Source: Prevotellaceae bacterium
GTDB taxonomy: Bacteria; Bacteroidota; Bacteroidia; Bacteroidales; Bacteroidaceae
Assembly (NCBI GenBank): GCA_030531085.1
Contig: JAUNOM010000003.1
Span: 82,790-146,789, forward strand
Reading direction: 5' to 3'
Length of the DNA: 64,000 nt
The notes under the pieces were generated by a model, which was not told where the DNA came from, ran no database searches, and saw only the letters and a list, made by a program, of their open reading frames with translations. A program made the translations under genes and the position numbers. Shown here in pieces: positions 56,096 to 63,846 of the stretch. Every line of letters begins with the position of its first letter. The first letter of the stretch is position 1.

Positions 56096-56117
56096 CTGCT
56101 TTCATTGTGATGTTCAG

Positions 56118-56191
56118 CGGTGCGTACGGGACTCGGACCCGTGACCTCCAGCGTGACAGGCTGGCATTCTAACCAACTGAACTAACGCACC
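56118..56191 (-). tRNA. tRNA-Asp (GTC), copy 1
   Basis: Read on the minus strand. Acceptor GGTGCGT/ACGCACC with discriminator G73; D arm TTCAGTTGGTTAGAA; anticodon stem-loop CCAGC-CTGTCAC-GCTGG, anticodon GUC; T stem ACGGG/CCCGT. The T loop reads TCCGAGT, so position 55 is C instead of the near-universal U. CCA is not encoded. It is identical to copy 2, 96 bp away. Confidence 0.95.
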
Positions 56192-56213
56192 TCGCATTAT
56201 TGAGAAATGTTGG

Positions 56214-56287
56214 CGGTGCGTACGGGACTCGGACCCGTGACCTCCAGCGTGACAGGCTGGCATTCTAACCAACTGAACTAACGCACC
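56214..56287 (-). tRNA. tRNA-Asp (GTC), copy 2 (promoter-proximal)
   Basis: Same 74-nt sequence as the other copy, including the TCCGAGT T loop. It is the first of the pair transcribed from the promoter at 56317-56348; the spacer to copy 1 is 22 nt. The open reading frame across both copies is a by-product of the tRNA sequence. Confidence 0.95.
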
Positions 56288-56316: not shown

Positions 56317-56348
56317 CAAAGGTAGGCTTTTTTTTTTATACTACCAAA
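56317..56348 (-). promoter_or_regulatory. Promoter of the tRNA-Asp pair
   Basis: Minus strand: TTTG (complement of 56345-56348), 20 bp, TACCTTTG (complement of 56317-56324). It lies just after the PIN-domain gene, with no clear terminator between. Confidence 0.82.
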
Positions 56349-56384: not shown

Positions 56385-57971
56385 TTATGCGTTTTCTGTG
56401 TTTTCCGTTGTTTGCGCTGTTGTTTCAGTGTTGGTCTTACGTGCTCTTGAACTCTTACGCCTTGTGCGCGGCTTGTTCTTGTTCTCGTCCTTCTTCTCCA
56501 CTTTCACGCTGTCCTCAGACGCAGGCTTCTCTTGCTGTTGTGGTTGGGATTCCGTTGCAGTCTGTCCCTCCTGCCTGTTCTTCTGCTGTGCAGGCTGGTT
56601 GGATGTTGCAGGTTCCGCTTTCTGTTGAGGCTGCTGTTTCGGCTTCTGTTGTTTCTGCTGTTGCTTCTGTTGGGGCTGCTGCTGTTTCTGTTTCTGCTTC
56701 TCCTGTTCAGTAAACAGGTTGTCCCCTCTGTGCCTGTCGCCGGGTCTGAAGGCGTCATCCCATAGCGTCAGCCTCTCCGGTCTGTTGCGGTGCATGGCTT
56801 TTTCTATTCCTGTCATCCATCCGGAGCCTGCCGCCATCTGTATGTAATGGTACTGCCGTGTGTAGAAGTCAAGCAGCTTCAGGTCGTCAAAGGTGAACAC
56901 CATAGGTCTGAGTGGGGCGTATTGGTCGTCCCACACATTATCGTCGATGTTGTTATGCTGTTGCAAATCATCGCAGATACCCATTGCGCGGATTGCTACT
57001 GACGCGTCATTCGTCAACAGCAGCACCTTCTTGCCACTGGCGAACAGTTCCACTACCTTTCTTATTATAGCGGGGTCCGCGAACGACGCATGGTGCGACT
57101 CCGCGCCAATACCGTCAATGCGAAGCCTGTTCTCACGCTGCTGTGTCAGTATCAGGCGCTTTGCCAGACGTGCGGCAGTGTTAAGGCATACCATATTGTC
57201 TGTAAAATCCGCCTCCCTTGGATTGGCCGGGTCCTGCATTGTGGCAAAGCGGTCTATCTCCTCGTACGTCTCTCCCATCATTATGAAGCGTCCCCTGCGG
57301 TGGTATGTCAGCCTGGATATGAACTCCAGCTGCCTTTCAAACTGCAGTCTTGCGTTGTATCTGGGGTCAGAATGACTTGAAGTGTGTCCCACAAGCAGCT
57401 CAAGCCATATATTGGTGTCGCTCACCACCACGTCATAGTCCAGTACCCTTGCCAGAGTTTCTTCCAGGAAATGGAGCCGTTTCTCTATCTCCTCCATTGT
57501 CAGTTGCTGTATCTGCTGGTCTGTGAGCACAATGCTGCGCATGGGGGCCTGCGTAAGCTCCACAATGTCATTTATCATTATTGATGGCAGTGATGGCACT
57601 TTCAGCTCGCGTTTCTCCTGTCGCGCTTTCTCCTCCCTGCCCTCGGCCATGTCCTTGCCCGTGTCTTCAGTGGTGGCCTCGGTCCTGTCGGTCGCGTCAC
57701 TGGTCTCCGTTACTGTCGGTACAGTTTCCGTTTCCAGCTCCTGCTTCTCCGTTACAGTGTCTGTCGTTACCGGCATTTCTTCCTTCGGAGTCTCCTCCTG
57801 TGGTGTCTGTTTCTTTGCCGTTCTTGTTTTCCTTGCAGTCTTTACCGTCGTGTTCTTTGTCCCTGCTGTCTTCTTCTGTGCAGGTCTCCTTGGCTTTCTG
57901 ACTGTCTGTGACTCTTGTTGCGGAGTCCCTGCCTGTTGCATTGTCTCCGCTGTTGTTTCGTTGTTGTTCAT
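56385..57971 (-). CDS. PIN-like domain protein with long disordered tails
   Basis: 528 aa. Residues 1-125 are low-complexity (T, K, E, A-rich, with KPRRP and KTARKTRTAKK), residues 420-528 are Q/K-rich and end in a basic RRKSSRARK. The folded middle (about 135-415) has PIN-type nuclease residues: VVVSDTNIWLELLVG (Asp185), MMGETYEEIDR (Glu234/237) and VLLLTNDASVAIRA (Asp322). It should bind and perhaps cut RNA. It follows the alcohol dehydrogenase by 17 bp on the same strand, last gene of the four-gene operon starting at 60980. The PIN call rests on motifs only. Confidence 0.75.
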   Translation of the reverse strand: MNNNETTAETMQQAGTPQQESQTVRKPRRPAQKKTAGTKNTTVKTARKTRTAKKQTPQEETPKEEMPVTTDTVTEKQELETETVPTVTETSDATDRTEATTEDTGKDMAEGREEKARQEKRELKVPSLPSIMINDIVELTQAPMRSIVLTDQQIQQLTMEEIEKRLHFLEETLARVLDYDVVVSDTNIWLELLVGHTSSHSDPRYNARLQFERQLEFISRLTYHRRGRFIMMGETYEEIDRFATMQDPANPREADFTDNMVCLNTAARLAKRLILTQQRENRLRIDGIGAESHHASFADPAIIRKVVELFASGKKVLLLTNDASVAIRAMGICDDLQQHNNIDDNVWDDQYAPLRPMVFTFDDLKLLDFYTRQYHYIQMAAGSGWMTGIEKAMHRNRPERLTLWDDAFRPGDRHRGDNLFTEQEKQKQKQQQPQQKQQQKQQKPKQQPQQKAEPATSNQPAQQKNRQEGQTATESQPQQQEKPASEDSVKVEKKDENKNKPRTRRKSSRARKTNTETTAQTTENTENA

Positions 57972-57988
57972 TTAAGGATTGTTGTTGT

Positions 57989-59167
57989 TTACATTCCAAG
58001 TCTGTACACCTCCTCGCTTACAGCGGGTGTGATAGGATAGAATGTTCCGAACTGCTCGCCCTTGTTCTGGTGCAGGCGCTTTACGAGTTCGGGAATGTTT
58101 GGGTTGTCTATACCCAGACCACTGAATGTGACAGGCAGCTTGAGGTCATCGTGCAGGAAACTCTTCAGGCGTCTCACGCCTTCCATGGCAGTCTCCTCAA
58201 TGTTTCCGTTCTCATTGCGCACTCCCATTACGCGTTCAGCAAACTGCGCAATGCGTTTAGGGTTGTGTTTGGCCATAAACGTCATGTAGGCAGGAGTGAT
58301 TACAGCCAGTCCGGCTCCGTGAGTAACGTCATACATGGCGCTTACCTCATGCTCCAGCTGATGTCCGCTCCAGTCCTCCACGCATCCTACGCCGCACGTG
58401 CCATTGTGTGCCACCATACCGCTCCACATTATGTTGGCCCTTGCATTGTAGTCGTTCGGGTTTTCCATGACCTTCCGTCCCTCATTGATGATAGCCATCA
58501 GTACGCCCTCGCACATACGGTCGCCAATCTCCGTCCCTTCCGTGTTGGTGAAGTAGCGTTCCAGTATGTGTACCATCATGTCGCATATTCCCGATGCTGT
58601 CTGCCATGCCGGCAGTGTCATAGTCAGCTCCGGGTTCATGATGGCGAATTTGGGTCTGAGTGTCATGGGCTGCTTTATGCCCAGCTTCTGCTGTGTGGAC
58701 TCTTTCGTTATGACAGCATTGCCGGAGCCTTCCGATCCCGCTGCGGGAATAGTCAGTACCACTCCCACAGGCAGCGCTTCCTGCACCTGCGCCTTGCCTG
58801 CGAAGAAGTCCCAGAAGTCCCCTTCATACTTCACTCCGCACGCTATGGCCTTTGCGGTGTCTATCACTGAGCCTCCGCCCACGGCTATTATGAAGTCCAC
58901 ACCCTCCTTCCTTACAAGGTCTATGCCCTCATATACCTTTCCGTCCGTAGGGTTTGGACGCACTCCGCCCATCTTGACTGTCTCCACTCCCGCAGCCTTC
59001 AGTGCTGCGGTGACGCGTGCCAGCAGTCCGCTCTTTACGGCACTGCCGCCGCCGTAGATTACGAGTGCCCTGCCTGCTCCATAATGTAGCGCCAGCTGTC
59101 CGGCCTTCTCTTCAGTGTTCTTTCCGAATATAAACTCTGTTGGTGAATAAAAAGTAAAATCAATCAT
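57989..59167 (-). CDS. Iron-containing alcohol dehydrogenase (YqhD/BdhA-like)
   Basis: 392 aa. NADPH-dependent reduction of aldehydes to alcohols. FIFGKNTEEKAGQLA, VYGGGS-like IYGGGSAVKSG and IIAVGGGSVIDTAKAIACG form the nucleotide site; SGICDMMVHILERYF and GHQLEHEVSAMYDVTHGAG hold the iron-binding Asp and His residues. Complete. Its start overlaps the DUF4435 stop by 4 bp (ATGA), so it is coupled to that gene, which is a surprising partner for a metabolic enzyme. Confidence 0.93.
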   Translation of the reverse strand: MIDFTFYSPTEFIFGKNTEEKAGQLALHYGAGRALVIYGGGSAVKSGLLARVTAALKAAGVETVKMGGVRPNPTDGKVYEGIDLVRKEGVDFIIAVGGGSVIDTAKAIACGVKYEGDFWDFFAGKAQVQEALPVGVVLTIPAAGSEGSGNAVITKESTQQKLGIKQPMTLRPKFAIMNPELTMTLPAWQTASGICDMMVHILERYFTNTEGTEIGDRMCEGVLMAIINEGRKVMENPNDYNARANIMWSGMVAHNGTCGVGCVEDWSGHQLEHEVSAMYDVTHGAGLAVITPAYMTFMAKHNPKRIAQFAERVMGVRNENGNIEETAMEGVRRLKSFLHDDLKLPVTFSGLGIDNPNIPELVKRLHQNKGEQFGTFYPITPAVSEEVYRLGM

Positions 59168-60168
59168 TGTTGTTCCTTCTCTTGTCTGTTAATGATTCTC
59201 TCCACATCCTTCAGTATTCTCTGGTAGAATGGTGAGCTTGTGTATCCCATGTTCTTCTTGAGCATGGCCGTAATGTCACTTTGTGACTTGGTGTAAGCCG
59301 ACAACTCGTTCTGCAACTGCATCACGTGCATGGCCTTTCCCCTTATCTCCCTTTCCCTCTCACGCCTTAGTTCGTCACATACCGTCTGCACTGTCGGTGC
59401 CACCACGTTCTCAAACAGGTGGTGCCCCTGTACAAACAGGTACGTGTTCTCCGGCATTACGCCGAAACGCACCAGTTCATCCTTCGTCTTCAGATATTCC
59501 GCCTTGCGTCCGGGATAAGCCTTTATCAGCTCGCTTATCCTCACCCGCACCTTGTGTCTGACCTTCTCGATGCTTGACATCATGTCTGGCAGGCGCGAGT
59601 GCCTTATGGTTACGACCTTGTTGAAGTCGGTAATGCTGAACCGCGTGTACTCCCTCTTCCTGTAGAGCATGATGCTCCATATAAATAAAGGATATATAGC
59701 CTTGCTGTATTCTTGCAGAAAGGTCTCGAAGTCGAATATGGAATGGTCGTTGAGTGTAGCCATCACACACACGTTGTGCAGTGACTGGGCATAGCATTGA
59801 TAGTTCTCTATGGCATAAACGTATGTGTGCACCACATACGGGTTGCCCAGCATGAAGTCGGACTGGAATGTCCTTCCGTTTATCAGATAGTCATAGTCCG
59901 CGTCCACACAGGCCATCATGCTGTTGCCCGCCCCGTTCTTCATCAGTGACATCAGTGCCTGCTTCTTCCCCTTGTTCAGTGAGTTTCTGCTTGGCAGCAT
60001 CACTTCAAAATACCGGGTGTCGTCCTCGAAGCGGCTCAGCACCATCCTCCAGAAGAACACATCGTCATAGCTCTCCACGTATGCCACTATCCTTCTCCGC
60101 GCCTTCTTGCCCTTCAGCTTGTTGGCGGCGTTGATATAGTCGCTTGATATGTAGTTCTTCAGTGCCAT
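59164..60168 (-). CDS. DUF4435 protein with TOPRIM-like nuclease motif
   Basis: 334 aa. After a basic start (KLKGKKARRRIVAYVESYDD) the acidic residues of a TOPRIM-like fold appear: Glu32 in YVESYDDVFFW and Asp89/Asp91 in MMACVDADYDYL. The C-terminal half is helical and basic (RRERERE, LQNELSAYTKSQSDI). DUF4435 is the family of AriB, the nuclease of the PARIS anti-phage system, and relates to OLD nucleases. It overlaps the ATPase stop by 1 nt and the dehydrogenase start by 4 bp. Confidence 0.85.
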   Translation of the reverse strand: MALKNYISSDYINAANKLKGKKARRRIVAYVESYDDVFFWRMVLSRFEDDTRYFEVMLPSRNSLNKGKKQALMSLMKNGAGNSMMACVDADYDYLINGRTFQSDFMLGNPYVVHTYVYAIENYQCYAQSLHNVCVMATLNDHSIFDFETFLQEYSKAIYPLFIWSIMLYRKREYTRFSITDFNKVVTIRHSRLPDMMSSIEKVRHKVRVRISELIKAYPGRKAEYLKTKDELVRFGVMPENTYLFVQGHHLFENVVAPTVQTVCDELRREREREIRGKAMHVMQLQNELSAYTKSQSDITAMLKKNMGYTSSPFYQRILKDVERIINRQEKEQQ

Positions 60169-60980
60169 CAGCCCACTTCTATCTCGCTTACCTCTGTTAC
60201 CCTGTCAGTCCATCCGTCCATTATCACCGCAGGCGAGTGCGTAGTCAGTATCACCTGCACATTGGGGTTTATCTCCATTATGATGTTCAGCAGCTGCTTC
60301 TGCCACTCTATGTGCAGGCTCACCTCCGGCTCATCCATGAACAGTACGTATGGCTGCTGGTCCTGTACCAGTACCGTCAGCAGTATCACCAGCATCTGCT
60401 TCTCTCCGCTCGACAGCTGGTATGGCATCAGGGTCTCTCCCATCTGCATGAAGCGTATCTCGTTCTCCGTGCGTATTATGGTCTTCTTGGTGTCGGCAAA
60501 GAGGCTGTCCACAATGTCATGGAAACGCTTCTTGTTCTCCGACAGCCGCTGTGCCATCACCGGCGCGTCGCTTCTGCCGCTCTGCAGCATCTCTATTATT
60601 CTGTTACCGAGGTTCACCTGATAGTCCAGATACCTCCTCTGCAGTTTGAAAAGCTGCAGGTCCAGCTCCGTGACAATCTTGAAGTCCAGTCTGGATGTTA
60701 TCTCCGAGCTTATCAGAGGCCTGTCAAATGAGCGTATAGTGTCAAAGCGCAGCGTGTCGGCATCATCCTCATGCAGCATCAGTCTCACGCCATTTCCATT
60801 CTCCACCATGCCGTCGGCCTGCACCAATGGTGTGAGGACCTTGCTTAATATGGTGCTCTTGCCCACACCGTTCACGCCACTGAGAATGTTGACGTGCCTG
60901 TCCAGCTGCCATTTAATGTGCTTTCTGCCGTTCCAAAGGGAGTCTATCTCAATCTGCTTTATGTATTCTGCGTATTTCAT
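60168..60980 (-). CDS. RecF/SMC-like AAA ATPase, partner of DUF4435
   Basis: 270 aa. ABC-type ATPase of the AAA_21/AAA_15 kind: Walker A GVNGVGKST (35-43), signature LSSGEKQ (189-195), Walker B YVLFMDEPEVSLHI (211-224) and the H-switch TTHSP (246-250). The middle helices (residues 100-175) are short, so it lacks the long coiled-coil arm of SMC proteins and is smaller than typical PARIS AriA. First gene of the operon, 1-nt overlap with the DUF4435 gene. Probably senses a signal and controls the TOPRIM partner. Confidence 0.88.
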   Translation of the reverse strand: MKYAEYIKQIEIDSLWNGRKHIKWQLDRHVNILSGVNGVGKSTILSKVLTPLVQADGMVENGNGVRLMLHEDDADTLRFDTIRSFDRPLISSEITSRLDFKIVTELDLQLFKLQRRYLDYQVNLGNRIIEMLQSGRSDAPVMAQRLSENKKRFHDIVDSLFADTKKTIIRTENEIRFMQMGETLMPYQLSSGEKQMLVILLTVLVQDQQPYVLFMDEPEVSLHIEWQKQLLNIIMEINPNVQVILTTHSPAVIMDGWTDRVTEVSEIEVG

Positions 60981-61072
60981 GTTGTTAAGGAGTAAGTAGA
61001 ATGGCGATGCGGTCTTGTCATCAAACGGTCATAATGTGACAGCGACAGTATCATGTATAAATATCATTTCTG

Positions 61073-61104
61073 CAAAGGTAAGCAAAAAAAATCAATGCCC
61101 CAAA
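61073..61104 (-). promoter_or_regulatory. Promoter of the ATPase-DUF4435-dehydrogenase-PIN operon
   Basis: Minus strand: TTTG (complement of 61101-61104), 20 bp, TACCTTTG (complement of 61073-61080). Leader about 85 nt to ATG 60980. The rest of the 320-bp gap to 61300 is AT-rich and holds the XRE promoter and its repeats. Confidence 0.82.
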
Positions 61105-62175: not shown

Positions 62176-63846
62176 ATGTCAAAACAGAAACCATATTTGA
62201 CTTACGCAATTAATGCGGAAGGGTATTTGACGCACGTAGATGCAGTGTCAAAAGGATTATCGTGTGCTTGTATTTGCCCTCATTGTCATAATAAATTATG
62301 TGCAAAGAATGGTGGAAACAATAAGGTTCATCATTTTGCACATAAAGATGGAAGTGATTGTGTGGGAGCAGTGGAGTCGGCATTGCACATGATGGCAAAA
62401 GAAATTCTTCAGGAGAATAAGAAGGTTATGTTGCCTTCTGTTTATAATAAGAACCAGAATGGCGTAAAGACGGAATTCTCACAGGTGAAAGTTGAGCCTA
62501 ATGACAAAGAACTGAAGTTGCGTCCAGATTGTATTGGCTACACAAACGATGGTAAAGAGATATGGGTAGAATTTAAAAGAACTCATCAGGTGGATGCCAA
62601 AAAGGCTGGTAAAATAATTTCGGCAAAGAAAGATTGTATAGAGATTGATTTGAATAAGAGTGAGCTTGACCCTGTTTCTTTGCAGAAATTTATAGAGAAT
62701 GAGGTCGCTCATAGAAAATGGATATATAATAGTCAATGCCCACCCACACAGTACTCAGATAATGAAACGCATAGATGTGATGATTATAATAATGACAGTT
62801 CCTCACATATAAGAAGGCATTTAGCTATGGACGATACAGGAAATATAGTTAGCCTGTATAATTTATCTGAAATAAACACATTAGAACATACATATTATTG
62901 TATGGCGTGTGGTAAAGAGGTTTTTATTGATGTTGATGATTACGGACAATATTCTTTTGAACATTTAAGTGACAATGAACAATGTATGGATGACTATTAT
63001 TTATATGAGGCGGCCAAGAAAATTTTATATCAGAAATTCAATACGGCCAATAAGTTTGAGATTGAAGTTCCTAAAGTTATGAAATGTGAGGAACAATCGA
63101 ATTGTAAATTACCTTCGTCATATACTCAATACTGCTCAAAACCTGTTAGCAGACGTTATGATTTAAAACAATTAGGATATAATAACTGTTCTATCGACTA
63201 TATGTTTCCGAATGCAGACTATAGGTGTGACATTGTATTGTTTAGAGGAGAAGATATAGATACATCTATAATCATTTCTATTATGACGGAAGATTGTTAT
63301 GTTGATGTTACATCAATGCATAAACGCACCATAGAGGTTAGGGTAGATTATGAAAGTGATGTTTATAGATTGCAAAACCAATCATTGGATAAGATTAATG
63401 TGAAGATGTATAATTTTCATAAATCTTTGCCTGATGGAGCTCATAAAGAAGACATAAATAATCCTTTGCTGGCCTTTACTTTATTTGTTAGTGGTAAATA
63501 TTCTATTGGTACTATTAGTTGCCATACTCCAAAGGAGCGTAGTGCAGTTTATAAGATTATGTTTTTTTCTGGATTAGAAGACAGCTATAAACTGAAGCAA
63601 TTTGCAATATATAAGTGCTATAAAGCTCATAGAACTGTTTGTATATGTGAATTATGTAGCTTCCTTAAAATACCATCTTCTTATCTGTCACATAAAGTAT
63701 GTATAAGGTATAAAACTAAAGGTACTCAACATTATCCGTTGAAGACAAAGCCTATTAATTGTCCATGGTTTGAGTATAATGAGGGTATGGAGATGATATT
63801 TCAAGAGTTTGAAAATAAAATAGAATTCATAGAACACACATTTTAG
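62176..63846 (+). CDS. CoiA-like nuclease-domain protein with two related modules
   Basis: 556 aa. Module 1: zinc knuckle CPHCHNKLC with HHFAHKDGSDC (residues 34-62), a helix ESALHMMAKEILQ, then a PD-(D/E)xK nuclease signature, LRPDCIGY (Asp118) and IWVEFKRTH (Glu132, Lys134). This is the layout of competence protein CoiA. Module 2 repeats the pattern, CMACGKE (242-248), SFEHLSDNEQC, LYEAAKKILYQKF, YRCDIVLF (Asp352), but lacks the ExK pair, so it looks inactive. The C-terminal ~150 residues are unassigned. AT-rich, last gene of the XRE operon. It may be a DNA nuclease in defence or DNA uptake. Confidence 0.75.
   Translation: MSKQKPYLTYAINAEGYLTHVDAVSKGLSCACICPHCHNKLCAKNGGNNKVHHFAHKDGSDCVGAVESALHMMAKEILQENKKVMLPSVYNKNQNGVKTEFSQVKVEPNDKELKLRPDCIGYTNDGKEIWVEFKRTHQVDAKKAGKIISAKKDCIEIDLNKSELDPVSLQKFIENEVAHRKWIYNSQCPPTQYSDNETHRCDDYNNDSSSHIRRHLAMDDTGNIVSLYNLSEINTLEHTYYCMACGKEVFIDVDDYGQYSFEHLSDNEQCMDDYYLYEAAKKILYQKFNTANKFEIEVPKVMKCEEQSNCKLPSSYTQYCSKPVSRRYDLKQLGYNNCSIDYMFPNADYRCDIVLFRGEDIDTSIIISIMTEDCYVDVTSMHKRTIEVRVDYESDVYRLQNQSLDKINVKMYNFHKSLPDGAHKEDINNPLLAFTLFVSGKYSIGTISCHTPKERSAVYKIMFFSGLEDSYKLKQFAIYKCYKAHRTVCICELCSFLKIPSSYLSHKVCIRYKTKGTQHYPLKTKPINCPWFEYNEGMEMIFQEFENKIEFIEHTF

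Follow-up and report, generated by a model that had tools for sequence, protein, structure and literature searches.

The closest described relatives of the gene pair considered here belong to the PARIS defence systems, in which a hexamer of the ATPase AriA holds the nuclease AriB until a phage trigger frees it, and AriB then dimerizes and cleaves tRNA (PMC11455837, PMC12409363 and PMC9122126). The AriB active site is reported to resemble that of ribonuclease (RNase) M5 (PMC12409363). We analysed a stretch of 64 000 nucleotides from a Prevotellaceae bacterium (GenBank assembly GCA_030531085.1, contig JAUNOM010000003.1, positions 82 790–146 789), referred to as the window, which encodes an AriA-like ATPase and a DUF4435 protein with a TOPRIM nuclease motif. 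The pair is most likely a chromosomally fixed, PARIS-type RNase that would be gated by its ATPase. PMC9122126 reports PARIS from satellites, with an occurrence in 5.2% of genomes, whereas the window pair belongs to a core and vertically inherited lineage.

Relationship of the pair to PARIS and other ATPase–nuclease systems

The original prediction of a PARIS-like pair is borne out by both proteins. The ATPase scores 70.7 bits against AAA_21 and 60.0 bits against AAA_15 in Pfam, and it matches the PADLOC model of AriA over residues 2–267 with 190 bits; the DUF4435 protein scores 181.7 bits against Pfam DUF4435 and 212 bits against PADLOC AriB. Both clear the Pfam thresholds published for PARIS, which PMC9122126 gives as 32 and 27 bits for AAA_15 and AAA_21, respectively, and 27 bits for DUF4435. 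In the comparison with the PARIS, OLD and Gabija families, AriA and AriB were the best matches, the other ATPase models being weaker (mad3, 75 bits; PtuA, 74 bits). Moreover, a profile of 18 family ATPases retrieved AriA (8ux9_B) as the top solved structure with 76 bits, compared with 49 bits for the next protein. Judged by sequence, the two proteins are homologues of AriA and AriB. The DUF4435 protein gave no meaningful match among solved structures in either sequence or profile searches; AriB was sought there, and the single profile match (E 0.22) was a spurious one to another protein.

Likeness to the PARIS system of Escherichia coli B185 extends to the gene order, with the ABC ATPase gene upstream of that for the DUF4435 TOPRIM nuclease, and to the catalytic residues, which are also kept in the window pair. 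The ATPase is, as originally noted, short: its 270 amino acids do not fit the long AriA type of known structure (464 amino acids). The two align at their ends only (AriA residues 6–51 and 365–439), and between these lie ∼135 residues in the window ATPase versus 313 in AriA; thus, the window protein lacks ∼180 residues of the central part of E. coli AriA. Near full-length matches are obtained with the short-form PADLOC models PDLC04164 (AriA) and PDLC04165 (AriB), against which the pair of a further family, f96, scores 326 and 302 bits. These models may derive from this very kind, and they carry a database label rather than a tested function. OLD, GajA of Gabija, PtuA and other defence ABC ATPases likewise tie a nuclease to an ABC ATPase, but they match less well, and here the ATPase and the TOPRIM nuclease are separate genes. 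RNase M5 shares with the DUF4435 protein its nature as a TOPRIM RNase, and it is the enzyme to which the AriB site is likened in PMC12409363, but it belongs to a different family and no match to it arose in structure and Pfam searches of the pair.

In 18 family ATPases, the Walker A motif (G35, N37, G38, G40, K41 and T43), the signature (L189, S190, S191, G192 and E193) and the Walker B motif (M215, D216, E217, P218 and E219) are invariant; the three patterns are matched by 56 of 61 ATPases, including that of the window, the remainder being two accessory copies, two sequences from f4 and one from f103. Within the TOPRIM protein, E32, D36, D89, D91, E121 and H249 are invariant in 20 DUF4435 sequences of the family, in a set of 20 that includes other families, and in 59 sequences comprising the window and its Prevotella-type relatives; the acidic residues on which the nuclease claim was originally made to depend are, therefore, retained. 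Additionally, K66, K68 and K69 follow E32 by 34–37 residues, much as K60 and K64 of AriB follow E26, a likeness of spacing only and not of aligned positions.

Distribution and inheritance

The family is taken as Bacteroidaceae in the GTDB sense (labelled f1), GTDB having merged Prevotella into it. Of the 249 family genomes sampled, 241 gave a DUF4435 match (E up to 1e-3) and 242 an ATPase match (E up to 1e-20), with both genes represented in 22 of 22 genera; more than one DUF4435 match was present in 27 genome rows, some of which may reflect split genes. The two genes lie on the same strand at all 68 different family loci that were examined, with a gap of at most 100 bp in 63. At one locus (L114), DUF4435 seems to have a long frame, overlapping the ATPase in a different reading frame. 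Both genes are absent from seven genomes, and G455 has the ATPase only; a Pfam search of these genomes and G455 found DUF4435 in none except G514, where a weak partial match (26 bits; G514:C3:594299-594619) lies elsewhere in a genome without the core pair. Five of the seven belong to genus g2. Other g2 members have the pair flanked by EamA and MscS genes; in these five, a cluster of aconitase, isocitrate dehydrogenase and citrate synthase genes occupies that interval (L273–L277; domains were tested in L273 and assigned by likeness in the others). In G334, EamA directly adjoins MscS with no pair between them, and there have thus been at least two losses. Of 14 named control genomes, DUF4435 matches were seen in Bacteroides ihuae and Synechococcus elongatus.

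Inheritance appears to follow that of the host. In a tree of 81 DUF4435 rows, f1 (100/99), f103 (100/100; a second Bacteroidales family) and f96 (95/98) each form one clade, as do f53, f4 and f71, with the placement of some long rows (plasmid and viral ones, for example) being unsure; a quick tree of 61 ATPases agrees with these family-wise clades. Across 29 genomes, from which that of the window was left out as no gyrB was obtained for it, distances correlate with those of gyrB (Mantel r 0.72 for the ATPase and 0.74 for DUF4435), and these values were reached in 0 of 2000 permutations. The median ratios of non-synonymous to synonymous substitution rates (dN/dS) for the two genes were 0.045 (52 of 79 pairs computable) and 0.069 (41 of 44), the rest being saturated; selection on the pair is purifying. 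Elsewhere, the neighbours of the pair are housekeeping genes: ruvB stands beside it in 7 of 11 f96 loci, an SMC/RecN-type gene and an enoyl-reductase gene are close by in the f53 locus tested, and the tested locus of f4 has FtsH-type and phosphatidylserine-decarboxylase genes nearby.

No match to the pair was found in 50 697 phage records, and a pattern-limited search of IMG/VR yielded two remote loci (30% and 23% identity). Six plasmid records contain a match, four of them remote and two from Bacteroidaceae. That of B. finegoldii carries alpha-2-macroglobulin, DUF1573, meaB, DMT transporter and MscS genes around the pair and, as these are the same kinds of neighbour as on g2 chromosomes, it is taken to be a piece of chromosome; the Phocaeicola record carries no annotation. 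None of the six makes a convincing case for plasmid carriage, and the pair does not display the patchy, accessory occurrence on mobile elements and in defence hotspots that is a trait of PARIS.

The same genome contains a second AriA/AriB-like pair (Table 1), directly following a gene with NqrF domains that presumably belongs to an nqr operon. Its DUF4435 is present in 4 of the 249 family genomes, its own included (E 1e-45), and falls in a clade that joins f1 and f96 genomes (100/99). Unlike the core pair, it shows the accessory pattern expected of PARIS, and serves as an internal control.

A nuclease lineage in which no ATPase was detected

In f103, tentatively guessed to be Muribaculaceae, DUF4435 was found in 55 of 61 genomes, among them all 38 good ones, and the ATPase (E up to 1e-15) in 22 of 61, including 10 of the 38. 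Seventeen ATPase loci were examined, five genomes with partial matches being excluded: DUF4435 is adjacent in 11, and in the other six, whose ATPases form one clade, it is absent from the 3.8 kb fetched. Both genes share a contig in G564, G576 and G551 (∼152, 153 and 50 kb apart, respectively) and are on separate contigs in G545 and G584; G592 (87% complete) gave no DUF4435 match. The 19 DUF4435 rows for which no ATPase was detected form a single clade (100/99), and the six TOPRIM residues, E32 through to H249, are kept in all 19. With such nucleases, the need of the RNase for the ATPase becomes directly testable. Nine of 23 f103 loci (L254, L255, L258, L259, L260, L262, L264, L265 and L267) also encode a large protein (940–1078 amino acids) near DUF4435; the one tested (L259) gave no Pfam match.

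Genomic context in the window

The four open reading frames (ORFs) and the two tRNA-Asp genes occupy the positions originally claimed (Table 1). The ATPase and DUF4435 genes overlap by 1 nt (TGATG), the latter has 4 bp in common with the iron-containing alcohol dehydrogenase (Fe-ADH) gene, and 17 bp separate this from the ORF for the PIN-like protein. No defence genes lie beside the pair, again as predicted. Elsewhere in the window, positions 62176–63846 hold a 556-amino acid ORF, whose N-terminal stretch we take to be zinc-ribbon-like, and CoiA-like.

Table 1. Positions of the core pair and its neighbours in the window, and of the second pair
Feature	Position	Strand	Basis or remark
AriA-like short ABC/AAA_21 ATPase, 270 amino acids	60168..60980	-	ORF, PADLOC, Pfam, structure-profile match
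AriB-like DUF4435 TOPRIM protein, 334 amino acids	59164..60168	-	ORF, PADLOC, Pfam, conserved residues
Fe-ADH, 392 amino acids	57989..59167	-	Neighbour, outside conserved unit
PIN-like protein, 528 amino acids, low-complexity ends	56385..57971	-	Neighbour, outside conserved unit
Two tRNA-Asp(GTC) genes	56117..56287	-	Neighbours, own promoter
Bacteroidetes-type promoter TTTG-20-TACCTTTG before ATPase	61073..61104	-	Sequence; motif upstream in 34 of 36
Second AriA/AriB-like pair	L094:7737-9659 (G000:C4)		PADLOC, 122 and 118 bits

Before the ATPase gene, TTTG (61104–61101) is followed after 20 nt by TACCTTTG (61080–61073), as read from the sequence, an arrangement that we take to be the Bacteroidetes promoter consensus. 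Of 36 sequences (the window and 35 of the 80 relative loci described below), 34 have TAnnTTTG no more than 150 bp upstream of the ATPase; 200 plain letter shuffles gave 3.1 on average and 8 at most. The promoter originally noted is present before the ATPase, and the tRNA genes (56117–56191 and 56211–56287; Rfam tRNA match) have a separate and similar one (TTTG at 56348–56345 and TACCTTTG at 56324–56317, likewise read from the sequence).

A scan of species genomes with the DUF4435 alignment confirmed 571 stretches, of which the best 80 were kept as relatives of the locus; nearly all are named Prevotella or Prevotellaceae, P. ruminicola KHT3 among them, and up to 6 kb of DNA was fetched on each side, some contigs being shorter. 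The ATPase precedes DUF4435 in all 80. An ADH gene is near the pair in four and a PIN-like gene in two, all within the five nearest relatives; in L126 and L127, both genes also follow the pair, and the PIN-like protein has ∼60% identity. The four-gene order that had been envisaged is, therefore, not kept. Twenty further family loci yielded nothing for PIN and, for ADH, a single weak and distant match (27%, 47 bits). A tRNA-Asp gene was near the pair in 2 of the 25 relative loci scanned, and none was near it in 31 others; with a promoter of their own and no retention near the pair, the tRNA genes were rejected as a partner. The Fe-ADH scores 158.1 bits in Pfam. In the PIN-like protein, whose ends are of Lys/Gln-rich low complexity, PIN_4 reaches 15.2 bits (E 0.028) where the cut-off is 21.9, and nothing was found among solved structures; PIN_4 is sub-threshold in two of three orthologues and absent from the third. 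The ORF stands, but its assignment as a PIN protein is weak, and we use the term PIN-like for it. The context of ADH, PIN-like and tRNA-Asp genes is confined to the nearest relatives, and the conserved unit is the ATPase–DUF4435 pair; the suggested partnerships with these neighbours gain no support, and nothing was found in favour of a two-nuclease defence system.

Possible function of the core pair

The core pair probably works in the manner of AriA and AriB, albeit with a shorter ATPase. By analogy, the ATPase would build a nucleotide-dependent assembly that keeps the DUF4435 TOPRIM RNase from acting. Upon a trigger, which could be a phage product or an internal stress signal, the state of this assembly would change, and the RNase would then cleave a structured RNA, most likely tRNA, thereby halting or retuning translation. 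This reading as a whole, in which a core module passed on vertically within Bacteroidaceae serves as a fixed and domesticated guard of the PARIS type and was not acquired as a cassette, has in our estimation an even chance of being right. A number of observations count against it. The link to AriB comes from matches to the DUF4435 and PADLOC models, as AriB was not recovered among solved structures, and gating by an ATPase is doubtful in the 28 of 38 good f103 genomes in which none was detected. Furthermore, the pair is not essential, since seven of 249 family genomes lack both genes. Under the original prediction, the defence reading would fail if homologues were universal and syntenic in Bacteroidales without clustering with the PARIS clade; universal presence is approached in the family but not across the order, where DUF4435 was found in 22 and the ATPase in 12 of 295 genomes at E 1e-30, although single-protein queries may overlook distant homologues in such counts; with its own query, f96 has the pair in 24 of 56 genomes.

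A housekeeping role in RNA processing, where DUF4435 trims or turns over a stable RNA during normal growth, as is the case for RNase M5, the ATPase is a dispensable regulator, and PARIS is a mobile offshoot or the source of the core enzyme, is somewhat less probable and yet a serious contender. The family-wide distribution fits a housekeeping relative of PARIS, which was one of the original proposals, and f103 favours it in several respects: the nuclease is present in every good genome and the ATPase detected in about a quarter of them, the nucleases without a detected ATPase form a clade with intact TOPRIM residues, and six genomes have an ATPase lacking an adjacent DUF4435. The reported resemblance of the AriB site to RNase M5 points the same way (PMC12409363). 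However, there are gene losses within f1, the phyletic range is narrow for a basic step in RNA metabolism, DUF4435 diverges more quickly than gyrB (0.486 versus 0.213 in mean p-distance), and a diverged f103 ATPase may have escaped the search at E 1e-15. A typical, horizontally acquired PARIS system would account for the PADLOC calls of AriA and AriB and for the passing of the Pfam thresholds (PMC9122126), but it is disfavoured and very improbable in view of the core distribution, the family-wise clades, the gyrB-like distances, the lack of any phage match and the unconvincing plasmid carriage. Still less credence is given to the idea that all four genes form one functional operon and that the PARIS-like pair acts together with a redox enzyme and a PIN RNase. 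The overlap of 4 bp and the gap of 17 bp in the window, and the recurrence of both genes in L126 and L127, speak for it, but within the flanks fetched ADH accompanies the pair in four and the PIN-like gene in two of the 80 relatives, all among the five nearest, and the 20 other family loci gave the single weak ADH match.

The component parts of the pair are already known. A literature search, made mostly without subscription papers, found no description of the core distribution, of the contrast between core and accessory pairs, or of the nuclease lineage without the ATPase, and no paper joining DUF4435 with Bacteroides, or PARIS with vertical inheritance in Bacteroidales. We tentatively propose that the Bacteroidales core lineage could be a cellular RNA-processing or stress RNase with an optional ATPase switch, the nuclease acting alone in one family. 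It is similarly conceivable, at no greater strength, that PARIS defence and the core enzyme are two branches, and that part of the ‘PARIS’ counts in the gut are not defence. One survey reports the abundance of PARIS and counts it as defence (PMC10924106). Defence surveys label by domain pairs, and our data suggest that much of such counts may represent a gene pair fixed in the core genome rather than immunity that was acquired. Overall, the findings suggest that a supposed mobile weapon became, or always was, standard equipment of the cell: if the pair defends, it would be a family-wide innate system; if it does not, it would show what use a cell makes of a PARIS-type nuclease.

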